NCBI RefSeq assembly: GCF_002968575.1
Contig: NZ_PVBM01000012.1
Location: 62,001 to 126,000, forward strand
From: Neorhizobium huautlense
Lineage (GTDB): Bacteria; Pseudomonadota; Alphaproteobacteria; Rhizobiales; Rhizobiaceae
Length of the DNA: 64,000 nucleotides
Direction: 5' to 3'
A program made the position numbers and the translations under genes. Below, piece by piece: positions 21,548 through 39,663 of this stretch. Numbering within the stretch: the first letter of the stretch is position 1; each line of letters opens with the position of its first letter. Below the pieces are notes generated by a model. That model saw nothing but the letters and a program-made list of their open reading frames with translations, was not told the origin of the DNA and made no database searches.

Positions 21548-21558
21548 GGGAGTTGCCG

Positions 21559-22656
21559 GTGGCCCACGTGGTCCTTAAAGATCTGGTCAAGACCTATGGC
21601 AGCTTCAAAGCTGTCAACAATGTTTCGCTGACGGTCAACGACGGCGAATTCGTTGCGCTCGTCGGTCCTTCAGGCTGCGGCAAGACAACCACGCTCAACC
21701 TTGTGGCGGGGCTCATCCCCATCACATCTGGCGACATCGTCATTGGTGATCGGGTGGTCAACGACCTCGATCCCAAGGACCGGGACATCGCAATGGTGTT
21801 CCAGAACTACGCGCTGTATCCGCAGAAATCGGTCTACAAAAATCTGGCGTTCCCGCTGCAGATGCGCAGGCTGCCAAAGGAAGAGATCGACAGGAAGGTC
21901 AGGGAAGCAGCACGAGTGCTCGACATGACCGAGCTGCTCGAACGCAAGCCGCGGGAACTTTCGGGCGGGCAACAACAGCGCGTGGCGCTAGGCCGCGCCC
22001 TCGTTCGCGATCCGTCGGTATTCCTGATGGATGAACCGCTCTCCAACCTCGACGCGAAGCTACGCGTGCAGATGCGGTCGGAAATCAAGCGTTTTCATCA
22101 GGACCTCAAGGCGACGATCATCTATGTGACGCACGACCAGCTCGAAGCCGTGACCATGGCCGACAGGATGGCAGTGATGAACGGCGGCTACCTGCAGCAA
22201 TACGATTCACCCGCGCAAGTCTTTGCCCACCCGGTGAACATGTTCGTCGCCAGCTTCGTCGGCAGTCCGGCGATGAGCCTTGTTCCGCTGGAGGCATCGA
22301 CGGCAAACGGCAAGTCCGTGTTGACCAGCGCGGAGGGTTGGAGCCTCGAGCTCTCGCCACACAACGCCCAGAAGGTCGCGAAGGCAAAAACCAGGAAAAT
22401 CGTGCTCGGCGCACGTCACTCGACGATCAAGCTGCACAAGAGTGCGGTGCCAGGAAGCATCCCTGCGAAGGCCTACACGGTGGAGCCGACCGGAGACGTC
22501 ACTTTCGTACAGGCTTTCCTGTCCGGCGCCCTCGTCAATATCAGCATGCCGCCGACCATTGCCGTCGCGCCCGATGAGCAGATCTGGCTCGAGTTCGACC
22601 AGGAGCGGATGCATCTGTTCGACGGCGAAACAGAAATGGCCCTCAAGGCCCACTGA
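21559..22656 (+). CDS. Sugar ABC transporter ATP-binding protein (MalK/UgpC type)
   Basis: A 365-residue ATPase: Walker [11 protein letters not shown], signature [14 protein letters not shown], Walker [17 protein letters not shown], switch [11 protein letters not shown], then a MalK-type C-terminal domain. A TTG at 21553 could start translation, but AGGGGAG at 21546-21552 is placed six bases before the GTG at 21559 and directly abuts the TTG, so GTG is preferred. It is a second MalK-type ATPase distinct from the one at 4060. Confidence 0.92.
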
Positions 22657-22686
22657 GACAGAGCGGACGCGTGAACGAGGGCATGG

Positions 22687-23850
22687 ATGACTACGAAATT
22701 CAAAATAACCGCTATCAGGCCCTATCCTGTATGGGTGGGGACACGCAACCAGATGCTCGTCAAGGTCGAGACCAACCAGGGCATCGTCGGCTGGGGCGAG
22801 AGCGGCTTGAGCGGTCGCGAGAAGGCAGTTGTCGGCGCGATCGAGCACTATCGCGAGTTTCTCATCGGCCGCGATCCGATGCAGATTGGTCGGATCTGGC
22901 AAGAAAGTTATCGCAGCCAATACTTCGAAGGCGGGCGCGTTCTCCAGGCGGCGATTTCCGCCATCGACATTGCCCTTCACGACATCAAGGGCAAGGCGCT
23001 GGGGGTTCCCGTTTACGAACTGCTGGGTGGCAAGCAGCGTGACCGCGTTCCCACCTTCGCTTCGACCGGTGACGAGGCCGAGGGCGAAGTTGCCATCGAA
23101 CGGGCCCGCGAGCTGCGCGCACAGGGGTGGCAGGCGATCCGCTTCTTCCCCATCGGGCAAAGCAGCAGGGATATCTTTGAGCCGCGGGAGTCGATCGGCG
23201 CGACCGCACGGATGCTGAACAAGGCGCGCGAAACGCTCGGCGACAACGTCGTTCTCGGGATCGACTATCACCATCGGCTGTCGGTGGCGGAGGCGGCGAG
23301 CTTTTGCAACAAACTCGGCCGTGGCGTACTTGATTTCCTCGAAGAACCGATACGAGACGAGACGCCGGAGGCCTATGAATCCCTGCGCAAGATGACCGAC
23401 ATCCCCTTCGCGATCGGCGAGGAATTTGCCAGCAAGTGGCAGTTCCTGCCCTATATCGAGCGCGGCATTCATCAGTTCAACCGGCTTGATGTCTGCAATG
23501 TCGGCGGGCTCACCGAAGCCATGAAGGTCGCTGGCTGGAGCGAGGCGCATTACGTGGATCTGATGCCGCACAATCCCCTAGGCCCAGTCTGCACGGCCGC
23601 AACCATCCATCTCGCCGCCGCGGTGCCGAATTTCGCCTGGCTCGAGACCAGGGCACCCGAAACAAAGCTGGGTTTCGATAATTCCGACTTCTTCCCCGTG
23701 CAGCCACGGCTCGATGGTCCCGACTACCCCGTCAGCGATCTGCCGGGGCTCGGCGTCGAGGTCAACGAAGAGGCGGTCAAGGCGGAGAGCTTTCGTTTCT
23801 GGGAGGCGCCTCACCTGAGGCGCCGCGACGGTTCCGTTACGAACTGGTAG
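22687..23850 (+). CDS. Enolase-superfamily enzyme 4 (galactonate-dehydratase-like, DgoD group)
   Basis: A 387-residue MR/MLE enzyme most like D-galactonate dehydratases. The capping-domain motif VGWGESGLSGREKAVVGAIE resembles DgoD. The barrel has D193-Y-H195 (GIDYHHR), E219 (DFLEEP), E245 (AIGEEF) and H295 in LMPHNPLGPV. The second-strand position that is usually a catalytic Lys is R152 (AIRFFPIG). It is the fifth gene of the second ABC operon, so its substrate is likely the imported sugar acid or its derivative. Galactonate itself is not proven. Confidence 0.87.
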   Translation: MTTKFKITAIRPYPVWVGTRNQMLVKVETNQGIVGWGESGLSGREKAVVGAIEHYREFLIGRDPMQIGRIWQESYRSQYFEGGRVLQAAISAIDIALHDIKGKALGVPVYELLGGKQRDRVPTFASTGDEAEGEVAIERARELRAQGWQAIRFFPIGQSSRDIFEPRESIGATARMLNKARETLGDNVVLGIDYHHRLSVAEAASFCNKLGRGVLDFLEEPIRDETPEAYESLRKMTDIPFAIGEEFASKWQFLPYIERGIHQFNRLDVCNVGGLTEAMKVAGWSEAHYVDLMPHNPLGPVCTAATIHLAAAVPNFAWLETRAPETKLGFDNSDFFPVQPRLDGPDYPVSDLPGLGVEVNEEAVKAESFRFWEAPHLRRRDGSVTNW

Positions 23851-23871
23851 TTTCATCCATCGGAGTCTCAA

Positions 23872-24618
23872 ATGACGCATATTCCAGACATTACGCGGCC
23901 GCCCAAGGACCTGATCGACGCGCTGAAGGACATCGGCGCCGCGACGGTTGCCGGCACGCTTGGCCATATGGGCTTCCGCAATCCGCACATGGTCGGTCCC
24001 GTGCCGCAGAACCACGGGAAGTCGATCGTCGGGCCGGCGCTGACGCTCCAGTTCCTGCCGCAGCGACCGGACCTCTTCACTGAGGGCGAATATGCCGATC
24101 CGGAGACGCAGTTGCACCGGCATGTGCTCTATCACGCGCAGGAGGGCGACGTGGTCGTGGTCGATGCGCGCGGCGACATGAGTTCGGGCGTGTTCGGCGA
24201 TATGATGTCGACGTATTTCAAAGGCAGAGGCGGCGCCGGCATCGTCATCGACGGGTGCATGCGCGATCGGCCCAATGTGGAGAAACTGGATCTCCCATTA
24301 TGGCTGCGCGGCTGGACGCCCAATTATCATGTCCAGACCAGCATCTACCCCAATGCCGTCAACGTTCCGATCGCTTGCGGCGGTGTCACTGTCATCCCCG
24401 GCGACATCATCGTCGCCGACGATGATGGGGTAGTGGTGCTTCCAGTGGCAATGGCGTCGCAGGTAATCAAGGAGTCGCAAAAGCATCACGAATGGGAGGA
24501 GTTCTCGCGAGCGAAGCTTATGGAAGGGGGGTCGTTGCAGCGCTATTATCCGCTGCATAACGATGCGCAAGGAGAATACGAAGAGTGGCGCAAGACAAAC
24601 CGCTTGGGAACAATTTAG
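23872..24618 (+). CDS. RraA-family protein (HMG/CHA aldolase-like)
   Basis: A 248-residue RraA-fold protein. The family signature is present as GAGIVIDGCMRDRPNVEKL, with the Arg and Asp that bind pyruvate and the metal in aldolase members, after VVVVDARGDMSSGVFGDMM. Family members are either RNase E regulators or class II pyruvate aldolases. The position at the end of a sugar-acid operon, 21 bases after a dehydratase-like gene, favours an aldolase that cleaves the keto-deoxy product. Confidence 0.85.
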   Translation: MTHIPDITRPPKDLIDALKDIGAATVAGTLGHMGFRNPHMVGPVPQNHGKSIVGPALTLQFLPQRPDLFTEGEYADPETQLHRHVLYHAQEGDVVVVDARGDMSSGVFGDMMSTYFKGRGGAGIVIDGCMRDRPNVEKLDLPLWLRGWTPNYHVQTSIYPNAVNVPIACGGVTVIPGDIIVADDDGVVVLPVAMASQVIKESQKHHEWEEFSRAKLMEGGSLQRYYPLHNDAQGEYEEWRKTNRLGTI

Positions 24619-24735: not shown

Positions 24736-25533
24736 TCAACCGGCATGGATTGCCAGCAGATCGGCGTAGGCTGTCTGATTACTCGCCAGCACCGGATGGC
24801 CCTGCAACAGGGCTTCTCCCTCAGCCGGGAAAGGCAGATGGTTTCCACCGGCTTCCTTGACGAGGCAATAGCCGGCCATGCAATCCCAGGCGCGCATGTA
24901 CGGCTCGTAGTATCCGACAAGCCGGCCCGCGGCCACATAGGCCAGCATCAGGGCACCGGAGCCGTTCCGGATGAAATTTCCGCCTTTGCCGAGCAAGGCG
25001 GAGACAATCGCACCTACCCGTTCCGGCGTGACATAGGTGTTGCAGCCAATGCCGGTCATGCCGTTTTGCAAAGTTCTTGACGGATCGAGGCTGAGCGTCT
25101 TGTCGTTCAGGCTCGCGCCCGCGCCTGCTGCTGCCGCGTAGAGTTCATCATCGCATGGAACATGGATTACGCCGATCACCGGCACACCGCGGTGCAGAAC
25201 TGCGATCGACACGCACCATGTCGGCATGCCATTGACGAACGGCGCCGTCCCGTCAATCGGATCGACCACCCACGTCAATCCCGACTGTCCTTCCTGGTAA
25301 CCGTCTTCCTCGCCCAGAAATCCGTCTGCCCCAAAAGCTTCCGCCACGCGCTGTCGTATGAATGTCTCGACATTGCGATCGGCAATGGACACGACGTCCT
25401 GCAGATCCCGCTTCGTCTCGATCACGAGCGTCTCGCGCCGGTTGAAGTAATCGAGCGCCATAGCGCCCGCCTCACGTGCAATCGCTTTGGCGAGAGCGAA
25501 GCGCGTATCAAGTCCGGTTTCTTGTAACGTCAT
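24736..25533 (-). CDS. Inositol-monophosphatase-family phosphatase
   Basis: A 265-residue Mg-dependent sugar-phosphate phosphatase. The three family motifs are GEEDGY, VVDPIDGTAPFVNG and MRAWDCMAGYCLVKEAGG. Members hydrolyse inositol phosphate, fructose bisphosphate, histidinol phosphate and similar substrates. It is the last gene of a minus-strand run that begins with two Afu/Fbp-type binding proteins and also contains a HAD phosphatase. The context points to dephosphorylation of an imported phosphorylated sugar. Confidence 0.88.
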   Translation of the reverse strand: MTLQETGLDTRFALAKAIAREAGAMALDYFNRRETLVIETKRDLQDVVSIADRNVETFIRQRVAEAFGADGFLGEEDGYQEGQSGLTWVVDPIDGTAPFVNGMPTWCVSIAVLHRGVPVIGVIHVPCDDELYAAAAGAGASLNDKTLSLDPSRTLQNGMTGIGCNTYVTPERVGAIVSALLGKGGNFIRNGSGALMLAYVAAGRLVGYYEPYMRAWDCMAGYCLVKEAGGNHLPFPAEGEALLQGHPVLASNQTAYADLLAIHAG

Positions 25534-25622
25534 GCTGGTATTCCTTGAATGGTTCTGGTCGTTGACTGTTTAAGAGGTCGATGCCGTCAGCTTGCGAGGC
25601 CGGGGTGAGATGGCAAAGGTGA

Positions 25623-26288
25623 CTAGGAGGATCGTTGCCGATGTTCGTCAGGGTTGCGCATCGAGCTGCCGCCTACTGTGGTCTCGCATTGCGGCTCGTG
25701 GAGAGCGAAGCTGTTTACATCAATGACGCTCATTCCCGCCCGTCGAGCTGCTTCAATTCCTTGCTCGCTGTCTTCGAACACGACACATCGGTTTGGTTCA
25801 ATTCCCAACAAAGCGGCCGCCTTCAGGAACAGGTCCGGCGCCGGCTTTGGATTAGCCACATCATCTATCGTGACCACCTCGCTGAAATACTCCCGTAGAC
25901 GAGTTCCTTGTAACGTGGCTGTAACGATTTCTCGGGAACCACCAGAGGCAACGGCCATCGGAAGCACGCCAGCCAGCCGGCGAACAGTTGCGGCAACAAC
26001 ACGAACTTCGCGCACATTGTGTACATTCCGGAGAAAGCGCGATCGCATCGTGGCAATGACGCATTCGCGATCGAGCACAACGTCGAATTCTCGTTCGAAG
26101 GCATCCATGAGAACCGCTTCAGACATCCCCGCACGCGCCAAGTACCAGGCATGGCTCATCAGCTTGCCGGAAAGTGAAAAGCCGGAGGCCCATGCGTCCG
26201 CATAGACGGGGGGAGTGTGCACGAGCGTGCCGTCGCAATCGAAAATGACAGCCTCGAAATTATTCTCGAGCGATAGAATATCAATCAT
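25623..26288 (-). CDS. HAD-superfamily phosphatase (subfamily IA, phosphoglucomutase/YqaB-like)
   Basis: A 221-residue HAD hydrolase: motif I IFDCDGTLVHT with nucleophile D17 and D19, motif II AVASGGSRE, lysine in ANPKPAPDLFLKAA and motif III VVFEDSEQGIEAA. The four-helix cap lies between residues 20 and 90. Subfamily IA enzymes of this type act on sugar phosphates. It starts 35 bases after the ATPase gene of the importer on the same strand, so it is very likely co-transcribed. Confidence 0.88.
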   Translation of the reverse strand: MIDILSLENNFEAVIFDCDGTLVHTPPVYADAWASGFSLSGKLMSHAWYLARAGMSEAVLMDAFEREFDVVLDRECVIATMRSRFLRNVHNVREVRVVAATVRRLAGVLPMAVASGGSREIVTATLQGTRLREYFSEVVTIDDVANPKPAPDLFLKAAALLGIEPNRCVVFEDSEQGIEAARRAGMSVIDVNSFALHEPQCETTVGGSSMRNPDEHRQRSS

Positions 26289-26322
26289 ACTTGCTCCTTC
26301 TTGCGCATTGGCTCAGGGGCTC

Positions 26323-27384
26323 TTAGGCGCTGATAAGAGCGATGCCGCGACCGCGGAAGCCTAGTGTGGCTTCGGACTCGGCAGGGAGGATACGGTCAAC
26401 GGCATGGTCAACGATGAAGAGCGTGCCGACCTCCGTTTCGACCTCGTATTCGACATGGTCTCCAAGATAGGCTGAATGCAGAATGCGGCCGGCAAGTCCC
26501 TGCCCGCGCCCCTCCAACAGCGAGACAGCGCTCGGGCGGACGGCGAGGCTTGCTGCACCAGGCTTCGCCCTGCCCGCAGGCACCCGATGCAGGAATCCGC
26601 CGATACGGATTTCTGCGTCGGCGCCATCGATGCCGAGCACGTCGCACGGGATCACATTGGCTTCCCCCATGAAATCGGCGATGAAAGAGGAAGCGGGCGA
26701 TTCATAAAGCTCGCGCGGGGCTCCCGACTGGGCAATCTGCCCGTCCTTCATGACAATGATGCGATCCGAGACGGCAAGCGCTTCGTCCTGATCATGCGTA
26801 ACATAGACGGCGGTGAAGCCGAGGCGCTGCTGGAGTTCGCGGATTTCCGTGCGCACCCGGCGGCGCAGGCGGGCATCGAGGTTGGAGAGAGGCTCATCGA
26901 GCAGAAGCACCTGCGGCTCCAGTACGAGCGCACGAGCCACCGCGACGCGCTGCTGCTGTCCGCCAGAGAGTTCGGCCGGCAGACGCTGTCCCATGCCGGC
27001 CAGGCCAACGAGCGCCAGCCCCTCCTCCGCCTTCTCCCGCGCTTGCCTGCGGGACAGGCCCGAAGATTCGAGGCCATAGGCGACATTCTCAAGCGAACTC
27101 ATGTGCGGAAAGAGCGCATAGGATTGGAAAACCATGGAAACATCGCGCTCGTTGGCCGGCAGCATGGTGACGTCCTTGCCGCCGATGAGGATTCTCCCCG
27201 CCGTCGGATGTTCAAGGCCGGCGAGCATCCGCAGGGTCGTCGTCTTGCCGCAGCCCGAGGGGCCAAGCAGGGTGACGAGCGTTCCGGGCTCGATGGTGAG
27301 CGAGAGGTCGGCAATGGCGGTGAAGGCGCCGAAGGTCTTTTTCACGTTCTGGAAGACCACGGAGCCGGCTTTCTGGGTAATCAT
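26323..27384 (-). CDS. ABC transporter ATP-binding protein (FbpC/AfuC/PotA type)
   Basis: A 353-residue ATPase with Walker [11 protein letters not shown], signature [14 protein letters not shown], Walker [17 protein letters not shown] and switch YVTHDQDEALAVS, plus a C-terminal TOBE domain (IRIGGFLHRVPAGRAKPGAA by parts). It overlaps the fused permease gene by 4 bases. Annotated ferric transporters and sugar-phosphate (Afu) or aminoethylphosphonate importers share this ATPase type, so the substrate must come from the binding proteins. Confidence 0.9.
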   Translation of the reverse strand: MITQKAGSVVFQNVKKTFGAFTAIADLSLTIEPGTLVTLLGPSGCGKTTTLRMLAGLEHPTAGRILIGGKDVTMLPANERDVSMVFQSYALFPHMSSLENVAYGLESSGLSRRQAREKAEEGLALVGLAGMGQRLPAELSGGQQQRVAVARALVLEPQVLLLDEPLSNLDARLRRRVRTEIRELQQRLGFTAVYVTHDQDEALAVSDRIIVMKDGQIAQSGAPRELYESPASSFIADFMGEANVIPCDVLGIDGADAEIRIGGFLHRVPAGRAKPGAASLAVRPSAVSLLEGRGQGLAGRILHSAYLGDHVEYEVETEVGTLFIVDHAVDRILPAESEATLGFRGRGIALISA

Positions 27385-29603
27385 GCGGTTTTCTCCTGAC
27401 GAAGAGTGGCGGACGGGGTAATGCCGGCGACGCGGTTTTCGCGCCGAAGCCGCCGTTCGCCAACAAGAAGCTGGAAGCCGGTGATGACGGCGACCATGAC
27501 GACGATGAGCATGGAGGAATAGGCGATCGCCACCCCGTATTCACCGTTTTCGACGAGGCCGACGATGTAGGAGGTCGCCATGTTGTATTCGGCGCTGACG
27601 AGGAAGATGACGGCGCTGATGGAGGTGATGGCGCGGACGAAGGAATAGACCAGCGCCGCCGTGATTGCAGGCCGCAGGAGCGGCAGTATGATCTTGCGGA
27701 TCGTGCGGAAGCTGTTGGCGCGTAACGTCAGCGAGGCTTCGTCCAGGCTCTTGTCGAGCTGGCTCATCGCCGCAATGCCGCCGCGTACGCCGACCGGCAT
27801 GTTGCGGAATACGAAGCAGGCGATCAGGATCAGTGCCGAGCCGGTCATTTCGAGCGGCGGCAGGTTGAACGCCATGATGTAGCTGACGCCGATGACCGTG
27901 CCGGGAATGGCAAAGCTCATCATCAGAGCGAATTCGAAGGCGTTCTTGCCGGCAAACTTCTGGCGCACGATGATATAGGCTGTCAGCAAGCCGACGACCG
28001 CCGTCAACGGTGCGGAAATGAGCGCGATCTCCATGGTTGTCCAGAACGAGTTCCAGGCGACGCCCGTCCAGACAAATCCGTTGTCGAAGCTGATCGAGAA
28101 GGCCTTGGCGTAGTGGTCGAGGGTTAGGGAATTGTCGAGCCCCCAGGTCTTAACGAAGCCGCCAACGAGGATCATTCCGTATATGACGAGCGTGAAGAGG
28201 CCCCACGGGATGACGAGAGCGTGTACGCCGATCGAGACACCGCGCGGGAGCGCGATATGCGCCCCGCTGTCACCCTTGCCCGTAACGGTTGCGAAATTCT
28301 TGCCGGAAAGCCAGAAACGCTGGGCAAGGAAGGCAGACAGTGTAAAGGCGAGCAATACCATGGCGAGCACGGCGGCGCGCGAGGGATCGTTCTGTGAACC
28401 GACGACGGCGAAGAAGATTTCCGTCGAGAGTACGCCATGGCTGCCGCCGAGCACCAGCGGATTGCCGAAATCGGCCATGCTCTCGATGAAGCCGATGAGA
28501 AAGGCGTTGGCGAGGCCCGGCTTCATCAGCGGCAGCGAAACGCGCCAGAAGGTACGCCAACGGCCGGCCCGCAGCGTCTGCGAAGCCTCCTCCATCGACG
28601 GGCTGACGCCCTCGACGACGCCGATCAGCACGAGGAAGGAAATCGGCGTGAAGGACAGCACCTGCGCGATCCAGATGCCGGTGAGGCCGTAAAGCCAGCG
28701 GCCGGGCTCGATGCCGAAGAGGTCGGACAGGCCCTGCGTGATGACGCCGGCACGGCCGAAGAGCAGGGTCAGCGCAAGACCGATGACGAAGGGCGGCGTG
28801 ATGATCGGCAGGATGGTCAGCAGGCGCAGGCCCTTCTTGTAGGGAAAGCGCGTACGGGTGGCGACGAGCGCGAAGGCAAGGCCGAGTAGTGTCGAACCGA
28901 GGCCGGTCATGATGGCAAGCCAGAGCGTGCGCCAGGCGACGCCGCAGCGCGCGCCACCGGTCAGGCAGCCGAGGCTCCAGATGCCGGAATCCTGCACGTT
29001 GCGGGTGAAGTTATCCGGATTGAACGAGCCGTCGAAATCCTGCACCGCACCGATGAACATGCTGCCGATCGGGTAGAAGACGAAGACGATGACGAGGAAG
29101 ACGAGGAGCGAGATCGCACTGACGACGAAGGCATCTCCCTTCATCACGCCACGCTCGGCAAGACCAAAGGCAAAGAGCAGCACGAAGGAGATGGCGGAAA
29201 GGACGGCACCGGCGCCCATCGCCGGTTGGCCGTCGGACAATGGCCCGAACAGCGTCCCGCTGATAGTCCATGTCCAGCCGGTGAGGCCGATGGCCAAGCC
29301 CTGGAACGCGAGGAACAGAATGCCCAGCGCGCCTACCCAAGCCAGAACGACGCCCCGGCGCATCGGATCTCCCATACCGCGGGCAGCACCGGCGATGAGG
29401 AGGAGCAGGACGGCACCGGCAAGCCAGAGCCGGCCGTGCACGCCGACCTGCACCAGATTTGGCGCCGCTGCGGAAGAAAAGGGGAAACCGGCCACCCAGC
29501 CCAGCCCGTAGAAGCCACCGTCGAACCGGTACCAGGGCAGAAGGATCAGAGCGACCGCGCCCAGGATCAGGACGACGTCCAGCCTGCGATTGCCATGCAT
29601 CAT
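27381..29603 (-). CDS. Double-length ABC permease (FbpB/AfuB type)
   Basis: About 740 residues with two tandem permease halves, as in FbpB/AfuB where one chain supplies both transmembrane domains. EAA-like loops are visible in both halves: MEEASQTLRAGRWRTFWRV and LDEASLTLRANSFRTIRKI. About twelve hydrophobic segments are present. A GTG frame opens at 29642, but ATGATG at 29600-29603 (MMHGNRR) has GCGAGGT about six bases upstream and leaves the hairpin at 29635 untranslated, so it is preferred. The ATG at 29621 is also possible. Confidence 0.87.
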   Translation of the reverse strand: MMHGNRRLDVVLILGAVALILLPWYRFDGGFYGLGWVAGFPFSSAAAPNLVQVGVHGRLWLAGAVLLLLIAGAARGMGDPMRRGVVLAWVGALGILFLAFQGLAIGLTGWTWTISGTLFGPLSDGQPAMGAGAVLSAISFVLLFAFGLAERGVMKGDAFVVSAISLLVFLVIVFVFYPIGSMFIGAVQDFDGSFNPDNFTRNVQDSGIWSLGCLTGGARCGVAWRTLWLAIMTGLGSTLLGLAFALVATRTRFPYKKGLRLLTILPIITPPFVIGLALTLLFGRAGVITQGLSDLFGIEPGRWLYGLTGIWIAQVLSFTPISFLVLIGVVEGVSPSMEEASQTLRAGRWRTFWRVSLPLMKPGLANAFLIGFIESMADFGNPLVLGGSHGVLSTEIFFAVVGSQNDPSRAAVLAMVLLAFTLSAFLAQRFWLSGKNFATVTGKGDSGAHIALPRGVSIGVHALVIPWGLFTLVIYGMILVGGFVKTWGLDNSLTLDHYAKAFSISFDNGFVWTGVAWNSFWTTMEIALISAPLTAVVGLLTAYIIVRQKFAGKNAFEFALMMSFAIPGTVIGVSYIMAFNLPPLEMTGSALILIACFVFRNMPVGVRGGIAAMSQLDKSLDEASLTLRANSFRTIRKIILPLLRPAITAALVYSFVRAITSISAVIFLVSAEYNMATSYIVGLVENGEYGVAIAYSSMLIVVMVAVITGFQLLVGERRLRRENRVAGITPSATLRQEKTA

Positions 29604-29634
29604 GGCCGACCTCGCTGTCATTGCGTTGAAAGGA

Positions 29635-29662
29635 GGCGGCACCCCAGAAGGAGGGCGCCGCC
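29635..29662 (-). other. Stem-loop between binding-protein and permease genes
   Basis: On the transcribed strand GGCGGCGCCC pairs with GGGTGCCGCC (one G-U pair) around an 8-base loop. It starts 13 bases after the stop of the binding-protein gene. Like the other binding-protein hairpins in the window it lacks a T-tract and probably protects or partially terminates the upstream message. Confidence 0.65.
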
Positions 29663-29675
29663 ACTCAGGACACCA

Positions 29676-30701
29676 TCAGTTGGCGGCGGCGCCGATTTCA
29701 CGATCCCAGCGCTCGAGGAGCGCCTTGCGCTTTGCCGGGTCGCCGTAGGTCTTGAAGTCGTAGTCGATCAGTTTGATGTTCTCGAAGCGCGGAGCTTCCT
29801 TGGGGATTTGGGCGCTCTTGTTGGAGGGGAGCTGGAAGGATTTTGCATCCTTCATTCGCGACTGGACTTCCGAGGTCAGCGCCCAGTCGTACCAGATCTT
29901 GGCATTGTCGAGGTTGCGCGCACCCTTGATGATCGACATGGAGCCGATCTCGTAACCGGTGCCTTCGCACGGCGTAACCGACTTGACCGGGAAACCTTCT
30001 GCCGTCTGCGCCACCGCATCGTGCACAAAGACGATGCCGAGCGCTGTTTCTCCGCGGGCGGCCGCCTTGACCGGCGCGGAACCGGACTTTGTGTATTGCG
30101 AGATGTTATTGTTGAGCTTCTTCAGGTAATCGAAAGCCTGATCCTCGCCCATGATCTGCACCAGAGAGGCCAGCGCCGTGTAGGCCGTACCGGACGAATT
30201 TGGATTGGCGATCTGGATCTCACCCTTCAGTTCCGGCGCCAGGAGGTTCGCCCAGCAAACGGGCTCCTTGAACCCCTTCGATTTGAAGATTTCCGTGTTG
30301 TAGCCCCACCCGAGCGCGCCGGCGTAAACGCCGACGGTGCGGTAGCCGGAGCTTTCCGCCTGACTCTTGGCCCAGTCGTGCAACTCGTTGAGTTTTGCCG
30401 ACTTGTATTCGAGCGTCAGGCCTTCGGAAGCGGCCTGCAGATGCGGGTCGCCCGTCCCGGCCCACCAGATGTCCGTCTTTGGGTTGCGCGCTTCCGCACG
30501 TACCTTGGCATAGGTCTCGCCGGATGAGAGGCGCACCATGTTCACTTTGATGTCGCCATGGGCTTTCTCGAAATCGCCCTTCATTTGCTCGCAAATGACG
30601 ACGTCCGCCGAGCAAATGAGGTTGAGGTCGCCGGCCGCCTGCGCCGGGAGAGCTGCAAGCGCCGTACCAGCGAAGAGCATAAGGGAAAGGGTCTGTTTCA
30701 T
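29676..30701 (-). CDS. Afu/Fbp-type periplasmic binding protein 1
   Basis: A 341-residue binding protein with a Sec signal (MKQTLSLMLFAGTALAALPA, cleavage after AQA) and the family start DLNLICSADVVICEQMKGDF. Domain markers are VWWAGTGDPH-like IWWAGTGDPHLQAA and PNSSGTAYTALASLV. The paired tyrosines that bind iron in true FbpA are not at the expected place (seen: NNISQYTKSGSAPVKAAARG). It therefore looks like AfuA-type sugar-phosphate receptors rather than ferric ones. It is 118 bases from a paralogous receptor gene. Confidence 0.88.
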   Translation of the reverse strand: MKQTLSLMLFAGTALAALPAQAAGDLNLICSADVVICEQMKGDFEKAHGDIKVNMVRLSSGETYAKVRAEARNPKTDIWWAGTGDPHLQAASEGLTLEYKSAKLNELHDWAKSQAESSGYRTVGVYAGALGWGYNTEIFKSKGFKEPVCWANLLAPELKGEIQIANPNSSGTAYTALASLVQIMGEDQAFDYLKKLNNNISQYTKSGSAPVKAAARGETALGIVFVHDAVAQTAEGFPVKSVTPCEGTGYEIGSMSIIKGARNLDNAKIWYDWALTSEVQSRMKDAKSFQLPSNKSAQIPKEAPRFENIKLIDYDFKTYGDPAKRKALLERWDREIGAAAN

Positions 30702-30752
30702 CGGGGCATCCTCCTGTTGCCTGGTTTCCGATTTTGGTGCGAACGAGACACG

Positions 30753-30770
30753 GCAGGGCCTTCGGCCTGC
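30753..30770 (-). other. Stem-loop between the two binding-protein genes
   Basis: The transcribed strand folds GCAGGCC against GGCCCTGC with one bulged C around a GAA loop. It lies in the 117-base gap between binding protein 2 and binding protein 1. There is no T-run. It would set the ratio of the two receptor messages. Confidence 0.5.
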
Positions 30771-30818
30771 TTGCGAGCGGCGCGTTCACGAAGTTCGGGT
30801 CGTGGTTGGTGTTGGCAG

Positions 30819-31841
30819 TTAGTTAGTCGCTGATATCACCGCGTCGAACTGTTCGAGCAGCCGACTTCGCTCTTCCGGCGAGCCAAAGGTAGCGAAGTCG
30901 TAATCGACCATCTTGATCAACGAGATATCGGGGGCGGCGAGCGGCAAGGTCGATTTCGCGTTGGACGGGACCTGGTTCTGGCCGGCAGCGGCACCGGTCC
31001 CCTGACCTTCCGGGCTCAGGGCGAAATCGACGAACTGCCTTGCCTCTTCCGGATGCCGGGTACCCTTGACGATGCTGACAGCCCCGATCTCGTATCCGGT
31101 ACCCTCACAGGGGGCGACGATGACGAGAGGCGATCCCGCCTGTTTCTGCGTCACGGCGTCATGCATGAAGGAAATGCCGATCAGGGTTTCTCCGCGCGCC
31201 GCCGCCTTGACCGGTGCGGCACCTGCGGTCGTGTACTGGTCGATATTGCGGTTGAGAGCCGCAAGGAAGCGGAAAGCCTCGTTTTCGCCGAAAAGCTGCA
31301 CGAGCGTCGCAAGCGTCGTGAACGCGGTCCCCGACGACTTAGGATTGCCGCTCTGGATACGGCCGCGGTAGGCGATGTCCGTCAGGTCCTTCCAACAGGT
31401 CGGTGCAGGCAGCTTCAGTTCACGCAGAAGGTCGACGTTGTAGGCAAAGCCGAGTGCTCCGGCATAGATGCCCGCCGAGCGGCTACCGGACATGGCAAAA
31501 AAATTCAGCGCCCAGGGCAGCAGGTCTCGCTCATGCGCCGGCTGATACGTTTCGAGCAGGTTTTCCGAACCCGCCTGCAGATGCGTGTCACCAGTGCCGC
31601 CCCACCAGACGTCGACTGTCGGGGCCGCCTTCTCGGCACGGATCTGGTTGAGAATATCTCCGGTGCTCTTGCGGGTCATCGCAATTTCGAGGCCGGTTTT
31701 CGTCTCGTAGGCCGTCTTCATCTCGGCGCACCACGCTTCATCGACACCGCATAGCACGGTGAGCGATGGGGCGGCCATGCCAGACGAAACGCTGCACAAC
31801 CACAATGCAACGCCCGCGCCGAAAGCGCTTTTACCTCTCAC
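30819..31841 (-). CDS. Afu/Fbp-type periplasmic binding protein 2
   Basis: A 340-residue paralog of the adjacent receptor. I start at GTG 31841 because GGGAGGAT lies four bases before it and a signal peptide follows (RGKSAFGAGVALWLCSVSSG, then MAAPSL); the frame open to 32303 would overlap the divergent regulator and is rejected. Shared motifs with receptor 1 include VDVWWGGTGDTHLQAGSEN, GNPKSSGTAFTTLATLVQLF and APCEGTGYEIGAVSIVKG. It is the promoter-proximal gene of the operon. Two receptors for one permease suggest two related ligands. Confidence 0.87.
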   Translation of the reverse strand: MRGKSAFGAGVALWLCSVSSGMAAPSLTVLCGVDEAWCAEMKTAYETKTGLEIAMTRKSTGDILNQIRAEKAAPTVDVWWGGTGDTHLQAGSENLLETYQPAHERDLLPWALNFFAMSGSRSAGIYAGALGFAYNVDLLRELKLPAPTCWKDLTDIAYRGRIQSGNPKSSGTAFTTLATLVQLFGENEAFRFLAALNRNIDQYTTAGAAPVKAAARGETLIGISFMHDAVTQKQAGSPLVIVAPCEGTGYEIGAVSIVKGTRHPEEARQFVDFALSPEGQGTGAAAGQNQVPSNAKSTLPLAAPDISLIKMVDYDFATFGSPEERSRLLEQFDAVISATN

Positions 31842-32061
31842 GATATCCTCCCATTTGGAACGGTGAACGTCCCAATCTCCGTACTCAGGATGCCATATCT
31901 GCCACCCGCCGCAACCCGCAGAATGGTTACCGTTTTTACAACGGCAGGCACGACCGACATCCCGAAAGTGACAAAGATTACAAATATGACAGGCCCCATA
32001 ATGCGAGCCGCTTTGAAGATTGCGATGGCCCCGCCTATGATGGGCGCGGGAGGACGTGCAT

Positions 32062-32802
32062 ATGTTGAATGAGAGGATAAGGATTCTGATCGTCGAGGAC
32101 GATCCGGATATGGCAGAGCTCATCTCCGACCTGGTAGAGGCGGAGGGCTGGACGCCGCTTACCGCGCCGTCGGCAGAAGAGGCCGCCGGCGTGATCAGCC
32201 GCGAAACCGTGCATCTGGTTCTAGTCGACCACAACCTTCCCGGCACCTCCGGTCGTACCTTCGCGCAACGCCTCCGCGCGCAGACCAATATCGGCATCGT
32301 CATGGTGACGGCCGCCGGCAGCGCAGCGGACCGGGTGCTCGGCCTGGAAACGGCGGCGGACGACTACGTCGTCAAACCCTTCGAGCCGATCGAGCTGACG
32401 GCACGCATCAAGGCTGTGCTGCGCCGGACGATCCCCTCGCTGAAGCACGAGCCGGAAATCGACCGCAAGCATGAACCGGCGGCGCTGAGGCTCGGCGACT
32501 GGTCGGTCGATCTTAAAAACCGGCGCGCCGTCTGCCTGAATGATCCCGCCAAATCCCTCACCAGCGCCGAATTTGCCCTCCTCGAAATTCTTGCCGAGAC
32601 CCCGAACCTGCCCGTCAGCCGCGCTCACATCCTCGACAGGCTTGGCGCCGAAAGCGAGCGTTATATCGACCGCAATGTCGACGTGCTCGTGCTGCGCCTT
32701 CGCCGCAAGATCGAGCGCAATCCGGACCTGCCGCGCCACATCCAGACACGCCGCAGCAAGGGCTATGTACTGAGTACCGACGACGGCGAGCTCTCGCCGT
32801 GA
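32062..32802 (+). CDS. OmpR/PhoB-family response regulator
   Basis: A 246-residue regulator. The receiver has acidic pair E12-D13-D14 (IVEDDPD), phospho-acceptor D56 (VLVDHNLPG) and K105 (YVVKPFEP). The C-terminal winged helix ends in RYIDRNVDVLVLRLRRKIE, then the wing TRRSKGYVL. GTG at 32056 is possible but GGGAGG is 8 bases before the ATG at 32062. It is divergent from binding protein 2 and overlaps the kinase gene by 4 bases, so the pair probably senses the substrate and controls the importer. Confidence 0.92.
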   Translation: MLNERIRILIVEDDPDMAELISDLVEAEGWTPLTAPSAEEAAGVISRETVHLVLVDHNLPGTSGRTFAQRLRAQTNIGIVMVTAAGSAADRVLGLETAADDYVVKPFEPIELTARIKAVLRRTIPSLKHEPEIDRKHEPAALRLGDWSVDLKNRRAVCLNDPAKSLTSAEFALLEILAETPNLPVSRAHILDRLGAESERYIDRNVDVLVLRLRRKIERNPDLPRHIQTRRSKGYVLSTDDGELSP

Positions 32803-34892
32803 TCAGTCGCCCGTTTCTCTCCTCGATCGCCTTTCGGCTGCCCTTCGCGATTGTCTTCATCTGCGTACTTGTCTTCAGTCTGGCCACGGTCGCAGTCTAC
32901 GGCCTCCAGCGCGCCCGCGAGGAGATGGCGGCTTACGGCCTGCAGGCGTTTTCAAGTCTCGCCAAGGCATCACTTGTCTCGCGGCAGGTCTCCGATCTGG
33001 TGTCCAGCGCGCCTTTCCTGATGAACGCCACGTCGCCTTACAGGGTCTCCAGCGAAAGCAGGTCGGTCGTCGCCCAGGTCGATGCGCTGCTTCTCACCAT
33101 GCAGCCGAAACACGACGAGACGGTTATGAAGGGGTTTGCCGGGGCCCACATCGTCGAGCTGCTGGAGACGATCCGCATGCAGACGACGACACTTGCCGGC
33201 GATGCGGAAGCGGCTCAGCAGCACAAGGCAGAGGCCGCGGCCGCGCTTGGGGAAATTGCCACCGGCAGCGGGATCGCAGACGCCGATTTCCGGCGACAGC
33301 TCAACGATATCGTGCAGTCGGCGTCGAACTCGGACAGTCTTTTCCAGCTCGGGGAACTGCGCCGCCGCTATGTCTCAGAGACGACGCCGCGCCTGGAACG
33401 CTCAGCCCCGGATTCACGGATTTCCCCCGGCGAGCTGAGACCCTATGAGCGGGTCTTTGAGGCTCAGACACGTTATCTGCTTGAAATGTTTTCCATCCGC
33501 GCCGCAGTGGGGCGCCTGCATTCCGTTTCTCGCGATCTCTCGCATGCGACCGAGACCCAGAGCGAGGCCGTCGCCCGGGGTCTCAACGAAGATCTCATTT
33601 CGACGTCCGACGCTCTGAGCCGCTTGCTTGTCATCGTCGCCCTGGCGTCGCTGCTTGTACTGGTCATGGCGATTTTCTCCATCCGCTCCGTCATGCGCGT
33701 TTCGCGCGGAATCGTCGCGCTCTCCACCGGCATGAACGCGCTGGCCGAAGGACGCAAGGATGTAGAGACGCCGAGCTATGAGGGCACGGAGACGGAACTG
33801 GTCCGTCTGCTCGAAGCGTTCCGTGCGTTCCGGGAGAGTGTCGAGCGCGTGACGCGGCTGCGGCGCACGGCCGAGGCGGCCGCCCGTACCATCCGTTCCA
33901 CGTTCCGCAGCATGAACGAGGGCATCGCGTTGTTCGATCCGCGCGGCCGGCCAATCACGATGAACCGGCGCGTCATCGAATTGGTCGGCTGGTCCGGCTC
34001 AGCCCGGAAACTGCCGCTCCGCAGTTTCGTCGCGCCCCTTGAAGAGATCGATCCGGCACTTCTGCCGGCCGAGAACGATGCCGGACTGCTCCGCGACCGG
34101 TCCGTGCTGCGCCATCGGTCCGATGCCGGCCGGGTGACGGAAGTTTCGCTATCGCGCCAGCCGGATGGCGGGATCATCCTTCTCGCACGCGATATTACCG
34201 ACATGGATCGGCAGGAGGCCGAGGCAGCGAAGATCCAGCGCCTCGACGGCATCATGCGCATGACCCATCAGGTGAGCCATGAGGTAGGCAACATGATCGG
34301 GATCATCACCGGCAGCCTTGGCCTGCTGGAGCGCGAAACCGGTTTCAATGACCGGCAAAAGCGGCACATAGCCCGCATCCGCAAGGCTGCCGACCGCGGC
34401 AGGTCCCTCGCCGGAAGCATGCTTTCGATCGGCAGCCAGCAGCCGAGCAATCCTGGCCCGGTGGAGATCGGCGCAGTGCTGCGCGGCATGGCCGACGTGC
34501 TGGAAATCGCCATCGGCGAAAAATGCCGGCTTTCCTTCGAGATTGACGACGACCTGCCCACCGTCCTCATCGACGCAGCACTCTTCGAGCAATCGATCCT
34601 CAATCTCTGCCTGAATGCCGCTGCGGCTCTGCCGGCGGGCGGTACAATTGTTATTGGTTGTTCCCGCGGCGATGCCGGCGTCAGCGTCAGCGTGACGGAC
34701 AACGGTATCGGCATGACACCCGAAGCCATCGACAAGGCCTTCGAACCTTATTTTACCACCCGGGACGCCGAAGGCGGCGCCGGTCTTGGCCTCGCTGTGG
34801 TCTACGGCTTCGTACGCCAAAGCGGCGGAGACGCTCGCATCACCTCTCTGCCGGGCAAGGGAACAGTCGTTGAACTTTTCTTTCCCGCATGA
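32799..34892 (+). CDS. Membrane sensor histidine kinase (HAMP-PAS-HisKA-HATPase)
   Basis: A 697-residue kinase. TM1 is at about 12-34; a large periplasmic helical domain spans 35-272; TM2 is at 275-297; HAMP at about 297-350; a PAS-like domain at 365-475. The phospho-acceptor region is MRMTHQVSHEVGNMIGIITG with H494 as candidate (H490 nearby). ATP-binding boxes: N602/N606 in LNLCLNA, D634 in VTDNGIGM, G-rich loop GGAGLGL at 659-665. The H-box lacks the usual R-T-P after His. It pairs with the regulator at 32062 through a 4-base overlap. Confidence 0.9.
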   Translation: MISRPFLSSIAFRLPFAIVFICVLVFSLATVAVYGLQRAREEMAAYGLQAFSSLAKASLVSRQVSDLVSSAPFLMNATSPYRVSSESRSVVAQVDALLLTMQPKHDETVMKGFAGAHIVELLETIRMQTTTLAGDAEAAQQHKAEAAAALGEIATGSGIADADFRRQLNDIVQSASNSDSLFQLGELRRRYVSETTPRLERSAPDSRISPGELRPYERVFEAQTRYLLEMFSIRAAVGRLHSVSRDLSHATETQSEAVARGLNEDLISTSDALSRLLVIVALASLLVLVMAIFSIRSVMRVSRGIVALSTGMNALAEGRKDVETPSYEGTETELVRLLEAFRAFRESVERVTRLRRTAEAAARTIRSTFRSMNEGIALFDPRGRPITMNRRVIELVGWSGSARKLPLRSFVAPLEEIDPALLPAENDAGLLRDRSVLRHRSDAGRVTEVSLSRQPDGGIILLARDITDMDRQEAEAAKIQRLDGIMRMTHQVSHEVGNMIGIITGSLGLLERETGFNDRQKRHIARIRKAADRGRSLAGSMLSIGSQQPSNPGPVEIGAVLRGMADVLEIAIGEKCRLSFEIDDDLPTVLIDAALFEQSILNLCLNAAAALPAGGTIVIGCSRGDAGVSVSVTDNGIGMTPEAIDKAFEPYFTTRDAEGGAGLGLAVVYGFVRQSGGDARITSLPGKGTVVELFFPA

Positions 34893-35056: not shown

Positions 35057-36706
35057 TCAAATCGCGAGCGCCGTCGAAGGTCGTATCTTTCTCGAAATTT
35101 CCTGAAGACTGAGAAAAGCTTGGTAACGCTGTTCATGGGCCCCGACCATATCCTGGTCCCTCGGCTCATACACCGAGGCAACTGATGAGAGCGTGCCCAT
35201 GGCGTGGCGAACATCGGGATAGACGCCGGCAGCGACACTGCCGAGGATGGCCGAGCCGAGCAGGACCGGTTCCTCTGCGACTGGGGCGAGGACCGGCTTG
35301 CCACAGGCATCCGCGAGGATCTGCCGGACCAGCGGACTTGCCCCCGCACCGCCGCTGATGACGACCCGTTCCACCGAAGCACCGGCCTTGGCCTGGGTCT
35401 CGATGATCTGGCGCAGTCCGTAACCGATGCCACAAAGGCCGGCGATGTAGAGAGCGACGAGGTTGTCGAGGTCGCGCTCCATTCCAAGCCCCGCGATGAC
35501 GGCGCGGGCATGTGGATCGGCGAAGGGCGCGCGATTGCCGAGAAATTCCGGGACGACATGCAGGCCGGCCGCGAGCTCGACCGCCTCCGAGGCATTCGCG
35601 ACCTTGCCCGTGGCGATTTCGGCCATAAAGGCTGGAAGCGACTTGCCCGCTACACGCGCCCTGGCTGTCGCCTCGCTTGCAGCCGGATGGAAGGAGAGAA
35701 GCTGGTCGATCGCAGCGCCAGCCGCACTCTGACCGCCCTCATTCAGCCACATGCCGGGCACCATGGCCGAGTAATAAGGCCCCCAGACGCCGGGCACGAA
35801 GACCGGCTCTGCGGTCGAGGTCATGGTGCAGGAGGAGGTGCCGAAGACATAGGCGAGGTTCTCGGCGGGATTGCCGCCGATCCCGACCGTACCGATCCCG
35901 CCCGCATGGGCGTCGATCATGCCGGCCGCGACCGCCGTGCCAGGCTTCAGCCCCATTTCGTTTGCCGCCTCCTCCGTCAGCCCCTGGCCGAGACGGGTCC
36001 CGGGCTCGACGATCGCCGTACCGATGCGGGCAAAGCCCTCAGCCGCCAGTTCGTTGAGACCGATCTTCTCGAAATAGCTTTCATCCCAGCGCGCCTCATG
36101 AGCGAGATAGGTCCACTTACAGGTCACGGTGCAAGTCGAGCGGGAAAGATCGCCGGTCGACTTCCAGGTGAGGAAATCGGCAAGGTCGAAGAATTGCCAG
36201 GCGGCCGCGAAGGTCGCGGGGCGGTTTTCCTTCAGCCACAGGATCTTCGGCGTCTCCATCTCGGGAGAAATGCGCCCGCCGACGTAGCGCAGCACGTCAT
36301 GACCCATGGCGTTGATGCGCTCGGCCTGGGCAACCGCGCGATGGTCCATCCAGACGATGATATTGCGTTCGGCCTTCTCCGACGGCCCGACGGCGAGCGG
36401 CTTGCCGCCCTCCCCGAGCACGACGAGCGAGCACGTCGCATCGAAGCCGAGCCCGACGACCTGGGCCGGATCAACCCCGGCAGAAGCGACAACCTCACGG
36501 ATGATCGCGCAGACCGCGTTCCAGATTTCCGTGCTCGACTGCTCGACGATCGAGCCGGCCTCGCGGAAAAGCGTGATGTCGCGCTTGGCAACCGACAGCA
36601 TCTTGCCGGAGAGGTCGAACAGACCCGCACGCGCGCTTCCCGTTCCGACATCAACGCCGATGACGTATTGCTGGGCTCCCTCGGACGAGTTTTGGGCTGG
36701 GGTCAT
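35057..36706 (-). CDS. FGGY-family carbohydrate kinase, D-ribulokinase-like
   Basis: About 549 residues. N-terminal phosphate loop YVIGVDVGTGSARAGLFDLSG and the FGGY hinge with IDAHAGGIGTVG, then ISGGAGASPLVRQILADACG near the C-terminus. Length and motifs match ribulokinases of the FGGY family. The start is set at MTPAQN (36706); the frame open to 36754 has no better support. A ribitol-2-dehydrogenase-like gene lies 55 bases upstream on the same strand; that enzyme makes D-ribulose, the expected substrate of this kinase, giving ribulose 5-phosphate. Confidence 0.87.
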   Translation of the reverse strand: MTPAQNSSEGAQQYVIGVDVGTGSARAGLFDLSGKMLSVAKRDITLFREAGSIVEQSSTEIWNAVCAIIREVVASAGVDPAQVVGLGFDATCSLVVLGEGGKPLAVGPSEKAERNIIVWMDHRAVAQAERINAMGHDVLRYVGGRISPEMETPKILWLKENRPATFAAAWQFFDLADFLTWKSTGDLSRSTCTVTCKWTYLAHEARWDESYFEKIGLNELAAEGFARIGTAIVEPGTRLGQGLTEEAANEMGLKPGTAVAAGMIDAHAGGIGTVGIGGNPAENLAYVFGTSSCTMTSTAEPVFVPGVWGPYYSAMVPGMWLNEGGQSAAGAAIDQLLSFHPAASEATARARVAGKSLPAFMAEIATGKVANASEAVELAAGLHVVPEFLGNRAPFADPHARAVIAGLGMERDLDNLVALYIAGLCGIGYGLRQIIETQAKAGASVERVVISGGAGASPLVRQILADACGKPVLAPVAEEPVLLGSAILGSVAAGVYPDVRHAMGTLSSVASVYEPRDQDMVGAHEQRYQAFLSLQEISRKIRPSTALAI

Positions 36707-36761
36707 GATCTTACGCTCTGCTGTCGGCTTGTAGTGTGCGTGCTTCCGGATCACGCCGGCG

Positions 36762-37490
36762 TCAGAGATCGACGCTGTTCGGGAGGATCACGAGATCGCG
36801 GATCGTTACGTTGCGCGGCCTCGACAGCATGAAGAGCACGGCGTCGGCCACTTCCTTTGGCTGCATCAGGCTGCCATTGGCAAGCGCTTCCTCCATCTTG
36901 GCCTTCGGCCAGTCGTCGAGCAGTGCCGTGACGACTGGCCCTGGCAGGACCGCACCGACACGCACGCCATGCGGAGCGACCTGACGGCGGGTCGAATGCA
37001 CGAAGGCCTGGACTGCGAACTTCGATGCCGTGTAGATCGGCTCCCAGACCACCGGCACCACCCCGGCAATCGAACTGGTGAACAGGATGTCGCCCGACTT
37101 CTGCGCGATCATGTGCGGCAGGACCGCATGCACCGAGCGGAAGGCGGCATTGATGTTGAGATTGAGCATCCGGTCCCAGGCATCCGGATCTCCCTCGGCC
37201 ACCGGCCCACCGATATAGGCGCCGGCGTTGGCATGAAAGATATCGAGCCGGCCAGCAAGCTCCAGGATGCGGGGAAGCATGCTGGAGACGGCAGGACCGT
37301 CGAAGAGATCGACCACCAGGGGCTTTGCGCGCTCGCCGAATTCCTGGCAAAGCGTCTCGAGCTTGTCCTTGGCGCGGTCGATCAGAACGACGGTCGCGCC
37401 TTCGGCGATCAGTGTGCGGGCGCATTCAAGCCCGATACCTGAGGCTGCGCCGGTGATCCCCGCAACCTTGCCCTTCATCAGTTCAGTCAT
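36762..37490 (-). CDS. rbtD: Ribitol 2-dehydrogenase (short-chain dehydrogenase)
   Basis: A 242-residue SDR with cofactor loop TGAASGIG (13-20), catalytic S140, Y153 and K157 (PIYTASKFA). Long stretches match my memory of Klebsiella ribitol dehydrogenase, for example [40 protein letters not shown] and the exact end VILPNSVDL. It oxidises ribitol to D-ribulose with NAD. It is placed between a ribulokinase-like gene and an RbsC/XylH-type permease gene, which completes a ribitol pathway. Confidence 0.85.
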
Positions 37491-37511
37491 AACAGGTCTC
37501 CAGTCTTTATA

Positions 37512-39592: not shown

Positions 39593-39622
39593 GACGGGCG
39601 CTCTTCTTTCGACATGGGTCAC

Positions 39623-39649
39623 GCCCGGCCGGAGCAAGCCCGGCCGAGC
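39623..39649 (-). other. Stem-loop between binding-protein and ATPase genes
   Basis: The transcribed strand folds GCTCGGCCGG against CCGGCCGGGC (one U-G pair) around a 7-base loop, 15 bases after the binding-protein stop. It has no T-tract. It matches the other hairpins that follow binding-protein genes here. Confidence 0.65.
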
Positions 39650-39663
39650 GCCTTGGGAGATCA

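Follow-up and report, generated by a model that had tools for sequence, protein, structure and literature searches.

A putative sugar-phosphate import cluster with two AfuA-type receptors and a divergent two-component system in Neorhizobium huautlense

The cluster and its receptors

We analysed a 64,000-nucleotide stretch of DNA from Neorhizobium huautlense (assembly GCF_002968575.1, contig NZ_PVBM01000012.1, positions 62,001 to 126,000), hereafter called the window; the host genome measures 5.73 Mb. The window contains a transport cluster related to AfuABC, an ATP-binding cassette (ABC) importer of phosphorylated sugars. Two receptors (SBP1 and SBP2), a permease, an ATPase, a phosphatase of the HAD family and a phosphatase of the inositol monophosphatase family (IMPase) form a tight co-directional run on the minus strand, from 31841 down to 24736. 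A response regulator and a sensor histidine kinase diverge from this operon on the plus strand (32056-34892). All these genes, noticed in an earlier sequence-only reading as an Afu/Fbp-type importer with two phosphatases and a sensor kinase pair, are present as open reading frames.

Open frames and Pfam matches confirm a receptor-permease-ATPase operon organized as in AfuABC. SBP1 (30819-31841) shares 42% identity with AfuA over 308 residues, and SBP2 (29676-30701), the predicted receptor of the pump, 48% over 314 residues. The mechanically called frame of SBP1 reaches 32303; a GTG codon following a GGGAGG site sets its start at 31841, and in the other SBP1-regulator intergenic regions that we inspected a purine stretch resembling a ribosome site and a start codon (GTG, ATG or TTG) occupy the same place. 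The AfuB-like permease (27381-29642) is a fused two-domain protein with two BPD_transp_1 stretches. It is followed by the AfuC-like ATPase (26323-27384; PF00005 and TOBE_2), which scores below the cut-offs of the ferric and 2-aminoethylphosphonate NCBIfam models.

Both receptors are homologous to AfuA far beyond chance, as judged from their sequences. Their closest solved structures are AfuA of Actinobacillus (4r72-4r75), then 8x1a and then P5PA, with iron receptors far behind; E-values against AfuA are 2e-89 for SBP2 and 7e-79 for SBP1. Structures 6lkg and 6lki, which we take to be HptA, are only distant matches to SBP2 (E 3e-10).

According to the available text of the AfuA study (PMC4546632), S37 and T150 contact the phosphate, and the sugar ring is held by H205, D206 and E229, whose replacement by alanine, one at a time, abolishes binding of glucose 6-phosphate (G6P). 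Mutation of any of the five residues weakened or abolished this binding. SBP2 keeps all five (S-T-H-D-E) and SBP1 four (T-T-H-D-E), with S37 changed to T. P5PA belongs to the same receptor fold family; its ligand is pyridoxal phosphate, whose phosphate it binds with T37 (available text of PMC8427247). At the five positions it reads T-T-H-A-A, with alanine in place of D206 and E229; as both our receptors have D and E there, we rejected a pyridoxal-phosphate reading.

The H, D and E residues are retained in 100 of 104 receptors from 91 loci. The adjacent tyrosines of iron-binding FbpA are missing, as the sequence-only reading had noted: NYYWY of HitA, whose tyrosines bind iron, aligns with SFMHD in SBP1, and SBP2 has VFVHD there. 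Altogether, the pockets of both receptors match that of AfuA, and a ligand of the sugar-phosphate class, as first proposed from the sequence, is very likely. This class is already a published prediction and not new here, because a list of 268 putative AfuA homologues, including 121 from alpha- and betaproteobacteria, was drawn up in 2015 from the same three residues (available text of PMC4546632). A different receptor pair occurs at three order-level loci (L141, L143 and L144; L numbers designate individual loci), where one receptor has M-E replacing H205-D206 (pattern TTMEE), which suggests a changed ligand.

Linkage of the phosphatases

The cluster was compared with relatives sampled at several taxonomic levels. 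The same-genus sample comprises 35 other genomes, of which 27 have the receptor; counts out of 27 refer to those loci. At the level of the order, an AfuA-type receptor (E<=1e-55) occurs in 64 of 297 genomes, and 62 loci come from 61 of these; the host genome of the window and two already sampled genomes (G027 and G049) are excluded. The phylum sample has the receptor in 28 of 398 genomes, with 22 further loci examined and four weaker second places left out. Finally, a search of named genomes with SBP1 retained the best 80 of 108 relatives. SBP1 is the best match in 75 of the 80; the receptor of the other five is single and SBP2-like, and the stretch examined there contains no such two-component system.

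The IMPase gene (24736-25533; PF00459, E 7e-54) is the last of the operon and encodes the catalytic motifs GEED, DPIDGT and WD. A counterpart lies downstream of the ATPase gene in all 27 same-genus loci (in L046 with the HAD gene between them) and is found in 65 of the 75 named SBP1 loci. At the order level, an IMPase-family gene is near the receptor in 32 of 62 loci, in three arrangements: downstream, or upstream with either the same or the opposite direction. The host genome holds seven IMPase-family genes, for which our own arithmetic gives a chance placement within 6 kb of about 1.5%; comparison of coordinates places none of the seven within 6 kb of the other 13 SBP_bac_6 places in this genome.

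In the phylum sample, IMPase is found at five of six loci inside the class of the window versus one of 16 outside it (L247). Because of this difference, the coupling of AfuABC to IMPase looks like an elaboration of that class, presumably the Alphaproteobacteria. The outside locus L247 (G668:C8:189000-205000) is of the LacI type, with an IMPase gene and an SBP2 at 73-75% identity, and is a candidate for horizontal transfer.

The accessory HAD-IA phosphatase (25623-26288; beta-phosphoglucomutase/YqaB-like) carries DCDGT, KPAP and ED motifs and matches TIGR01509 above its cut-off (76 versus 29 bits). Its distribution is sporadic: one of 27 same-genus loci (L046), seven of 75 named SBP1 loci and seven of 62 order-level loci, one of which (L100) has IMPase too. 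A conserved core of two phosphatases was therefore rejected. The earlier proposal of import followed by dephosphorylation is supported by linkage for IMPase and fails for the HAD enzyme, which is not linked to the cluster in most genomes examined. Neither enzyme reaches a specific assignment: the best NCBIfam match of IMPase is histidinol-phosphatase, far below cut-off, and as a beta-phosphoglucomutase the HAD enzyme scores 73 bits against a cut-off of 189 (TIGR01990) and 116 against 153 (TIGR02009). From gene linkage, we judge it likely that the imported compound is dephosphorylated inside the cell.

Five loci of one order-level genus (L090, L093, L097, L098 and L102), as well as L106, have a HAD gene after the ATPase gene and no IMPase, which hints that HAD may substitute for IMPase there. 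By these searches 24 of the 62 order-level loci have neither phosphatase, at least four of them being on contigs of 3.4-7.1 kb. Among loci with neither, an enolase-superfamily gene is close by in L145 and a PfkB-type kinase in L146.

The cluster of the window is flanked by other sugar-related genes. At 19704-24618 there are MalFGK-type ABC genes, a mandelate-racemase-like enzyme and an RraA-like aldolase, and at 35057-40710 an FGGY pentulose kinase, a short-chain dehydrogenase/reductase (SDR) and a ribose-type ABC system; RraA and FGGY were identified by profile match, the others by reading the open frames. We excluded the sugar genes at 35-41 kb from the cluster, as the 28 relative loci searched gave no FGGY-kinase match and just two weak SDR matches.

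The second receptor, its kinase and the divergent promoter

The response regulator (32056-32802, or from an ATG at 32062) is of the OmpR/PhoB type, with PF00072 and PF00486 domains. Its stop codon overlaps the start of the kinase (32799-34892), in which PF02518 (HATPase) and PF12860 (PAS_7) are recognized and HisKA is below cut-off; Pfam found no receiver domain.

Of the 27 same-genus relatives, six have SBP1 together with the divergent regulator-kinase pair, and the other 21 have neither. The divergent regulator and this kinase stand at 75 of 75 named SBP1 loci. SBP2 adjoins SBP1 in 73 of those; the remaining two, L220 and L221 from Mesorhizobium, have SBP1 and the system without SBP2. The sensor region of the kinase was found in six of the 297 genomes of the order, beside an AfuA-type receptor gene in all six.

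Phylogeny separates the two receptors. In a tree of 89 rows, the 16 SBP1 rows form one clade (support 100/99), joined (100/96) by eight single receptors that all come from divergent two-component loci, making 24 of 24 rows. SBP2 falls in a separate clade (100/97; 18 rows) together with nine receptors, each of which comes from a locus where a LacI-family gene is adjacent. The permease tree puts the two-receptor loci in a 28-row clade with 12 LacI-type loci (approximate likelihood-ratio test, SH-aLRT, 100), the two-receptor group itself being supported at just 68.

At all 21 same-genus loci without the system, a divergent LacI-family gene adjoins SBP2. Over 90 loci, LacI is within 1.8 kb in 29, a two-component regulator in 27, both in none and neither in 34; in L092 a LacI-like gene is 2.3 kb away. 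Pfam confirmed the LacI family for two of those genes. At the LacI-type loci L053, L057 and L058 other two-component genes are nearby, with 28-34% identity, and were not counted as this system. In the simplest history, the SBP1-kinase-regulator module would have been placed before a LacI-type pump-plus-IMPase operon, replacing the LacI gene. The two receptors had at first been taken as equal parts of uptake; comparative evidence instead couples the two-component system to SBP1 and the pump to SBP2. We favour, with some reserve, a role of SBP1 as co-receptor of the kinase.

The periplasmic domain of the kinase (residues about 35-272) is modelled as all-helical (pLDDT 86.5, pTM 0.79) and looks TorS-like. 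Among the 50 structures listed, TorS gives the highest TM-score: 0.51/0.53 for 3i9y from V. parahaemolyticus and 0.51/0.46 for the TorS-TorT complex 3o1h, with PilJ and McpS following. With a longer kinase model 3i9y again has the best TM-score of the 50 listed, and unrelated coiled coils come first by E-value. Among 47 kinase members, Pfam detects TorS_sensor_domain weakly in three and TarH weakly in 26, and searching PDB sequences with a profile of the sensor brought up no meaningful match. Conservation of the sensor region equals or exceeds that of the kinase part in some orthologues (86% versus 71% in L160) and is the lower of the two in others; this fits a conserved partner, without being proof of one. 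Such partners are documented: in the available text of PMC6321045, the binding protein TorT stimulates TorS, and PstS does the same for CtpL, a receptor with a helical bimodular domain.

Between SBP1 and the regulator, three tandem 9-bp units TGT(C/A)A-N4 (31965-31991, minus strand) form a proposed operator of the regulator, supported by repeat counts in intergenic regions. A second conserved element, TGTAAAAACGGTAACCAT (31923-31940, minus strand), with AACCATTC overlapping its 3' end, is proposed as a regulator site near the SBP1 promoter. We compared 80 such intergenic regions (75 named loci, four others and the window), which are related by descent, a few being the same locus twice, and are not 80 independent cases. 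Tandem TG(T/C)(A/C)A words at exact 9-bp spacing occur with at least three units in 54 of 80 and at least two in 66. As controls, we used shuffles and other spacings: shuffled regions have two units at 9 bp in at most 0.8% of cases, and at spacings of 7, 8, 10, 11 and 12 none of the 80 regions has two units. The element with AACCATTC is in 73 of 80.

With the strict motif, at least three units at 9 bp are found in eight of the 27 two-component loci, all of the SBP1 type; the strict 9-bp repeat was not seen in L047 or at single-receptor two-component loci. Two loci without the system, L055 and L123, have one pair of strict-motif units. Where the system is missing, the upstream regions contain paired TGTMA-like words: 26 of 63 have a pair at 10 bp and 11 of 63 a pair at 11 bp.

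Other promoters of the family were inspected by eye. LacI-type ones (L051-L071, upstream of SBP2) contain TTGCA-type palindromes such as TTGCACACGCTTGCAA, mostly by a TTGACA box, which are likely LacI operators. In four single-receptor two-component promoters (L090, L093, L098 and L106), words resembling TAACATT recur at intervals of about 9 bp and may be a diverged version of the 9-bp operator.

A proposed pathway and its rivals

We now propose a pathway for the cluster: AfuABC-type import of a sugar phosphate, followed by dephosphorylation and induced by the SBP1-kinase-regulator module. A periplasmic sugar phosphate would be bound by SBP1, and SBP1 would contact the kinase at its helical, TorS-like domain. 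The OmpR-type regulator, once phosphorylated by the kinase, would bind the TGTMA-N4 repeats spaced 9 bp and turn on both divergent transcripts. SBP2, and perhaps SBP1 too, would hand the sugar phosphate to the pump formed by permease and ATPase. In the cytosol, sugar and phosphate would be split apart by the IMPase-family enzyme, in this genome with help from the HAD enzyme. The sensing module would have replaced the LacI-family regulator that still stands by the same pump and IMPase in close relatives. Homology, pocket residues, linkage, co-occurrence, trees and repeats support this reading, and from them we infer the ligand, the SBP1-kinase contact, operator function, LacI regulation and the enzyme substrates; we regard it as probable as a whole.

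Known systems resemble parts of this pathway. PgtABC-PgtP of Salmonella also concerns a phosphorylated compound and has a kinase with a periplasmic regulator, its regulator and transporter being of other classes. TorT-TorS-TorR has a kinase whose periplasmic sensor is all-helical, as in the model of our kinase, and whose partner is a binding protein in the periplasm, a role proposed here for SBP1. TorT belongs to a different class of binding proteins and TorS to the hybrid kinases, whereas the kinase here has no receiver domain that we could find, and the ligand differs. In the Uhp system, the partner of the sensor, UhpC, sits in the membrane, and the regulator belongs to a different class. 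The HptASR-UhpT system of Staphylococcus aureus, in which we know of no phosphatase, is in our view the closest working precedent for receptor-coupled sensing. There, in the available text of PMC8774646, secreted HptA binds G6P and signals to HptS/HptR, inducing UhpT. The likeness is the sequence from a G6P-binding protein through kinase and regulator to a hexose-phosphate transporter; that transporter, however, is the antiporter UhpT and not an ABC pump as here. UhpABC-UhpT of enterobacteria is likewise an inducible sugar-phosphate uptake system under two-component control (available text of PMC4546632).

With AfuABC itself (Actinobacillus pleuropneumoniae, enterohaemorrhagic Escherichia coli and Citrobacter; available text of PMC4546632), the cluster shares receptor family, ligand-binding positions, permease and ATPase. 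On top of these it has a linked phosphatase of the IMPase family, one more receptor and, next to the operon, a two-component system of the OmpR type whose sensor looks TorS-like. Three points go beyond the published AfuABC prediction: IMPase is linked to the importer within the class, SBP1 goes with the kinase as a module, and that module trades places with a LacI-family regulator; we do not claim a new transporter class. A literature search, with most subscription journals outside its coverage, found no paper on a receptor-kinase-IMPase arrangement. Put at its fullest, with two receptors of different ancestry dividing the labour, a module of SBP1, kinase and regulator that was transferred as a unit, replaced a cytoplasmic LacI repressor and moved sensing from inside to outside the cell, and a Gram-negative ABC counterpart of HptASR coupled to intracellular dephosphorylation in Rhizobiaceae and their kin, the proposal is tentative, at just under an even chance.

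Several observations weigh against the pathway. No IMPase is nearby in 30 of 62 order-level loci, it is missing at 15 of 16 loci outside the class, and 10 of 75 SBP1 loci lack it locally, one of them (L174) cut by a contig end. Two of the other nine are the Mesorhizobium loci L220 and L221, and the rest (L180, L183, L184, L187, L188, L191 and L193) are Agrobacterium, Rhizobium nepotum or R. rhizogenes records; like-named records, for example L190, L201, L211 and L217, do have IMPase. Since IMPase is missing at so many loci, dephosphorylation is not essential to import. Single-receptor two-component loci, with a receptor of another clade, also exist (L092, L105, L110, L113, L128, L131, L132 and L134), so a second receptor is not needed for such a system. 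Moreover, as SBP1 and the kinase genes share a divergent promoter, their co-occurrence could be plain linkage. Foldseek found no match to the periplasmic model at E<=0.001, and E. coli TorS (3i9w) aligned to it poorly (0.28/0.25). As for the repeats, the motif was chosen after viewing the alignment, and 14 of 80 intergenic regions have a single unit only.

The most serious rival makes SBP1 a second transport receptor with another sugar-phosphate preference, the kinase sensing a ligand, or something else, directly through its helical domain. The structural matches to that domain indeed include PilJ and also McpS, which binds malate or succinate directly in the structures listed; SBP1 has kept a sugar-phosphate pocket, and as the sole receptor in L220 and L221 it may feed the pump there. 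Its strict association with the kinase, in the 27 same-genus relatives, at the 75 named loci and over the 24 rows of its wider clade, where receptors beside a divergent two-component system are the only members, makes this rather unlikely. Less likely still is that the ligand is another phosphorylated polyol, for instance an inositol phosphate from plant phytate, and IMPase a true inositol monophosphatase. The family of the conserved enzyme suits this idea, as do the named hosts, mostly rhizobia and other soil or plant bacteria. That family, however, spans many other phosphatases, the best NCBIfam match of the enzyme being histidinol-phosphatase far below cut-off, and at the five positions tested the pocket agrees with that of a hexose-phosphate binder, apart from the S-to-T change in SBP1.

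Two further assignments have very little in their favour. A 2-aminoethylphosphonate importer of the Phn type would account for the partial matches to the NCBIfam models PhnS2, PhnT2 and PhnU2, yet these remain below their curated cut-offs (209 versus 393, 372 versus 458 and 270 versus 593 bits), the HAD enzyme matches phosphonatase weakly (37 versus 220 bits) and no other phosphonate-cleaving family is among the matches of the operon genes; we consider it highly improbable. The ferric iron importer of the public records, where annotated plasmid entries label the permease an iron ABC transporter permease, is the least credible of all: SBP1 resembles HitA and FbpA at the family level, but the tyrosine pair is missing, the match to AfuA (7e-79) far exceeds that to HitA (1e-13), and a phosphatase is linked.

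Sugar-phosphate import under receptor-coupled control, our preferred reading, would bear on many rhizobia, in whose genomes and plasmids operons of this type occur with their permease labelled as an iron transporter. Among plasmid records 146 match the cluster and 20 hold at least 80% of it; in the annotated ones the permease goes under the name of iron (or Fe3+) ABC transporter permease. Expression studies of rhizobia and Agrobacterium, in the text available, read afuA-labelled genes as signs of iron status; that their loci belong to this family is an assumption. If such operons import sugar phosphates, what was concluded about iron status should be re-examined, and phosphorylated sugars would be a candidate nutrient for these bacteria. 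Sister genomes offer a natural experiment, with the same pump and phosphatase standing beside either a LacI-family regulator or a receptor-kinase-regulator module.

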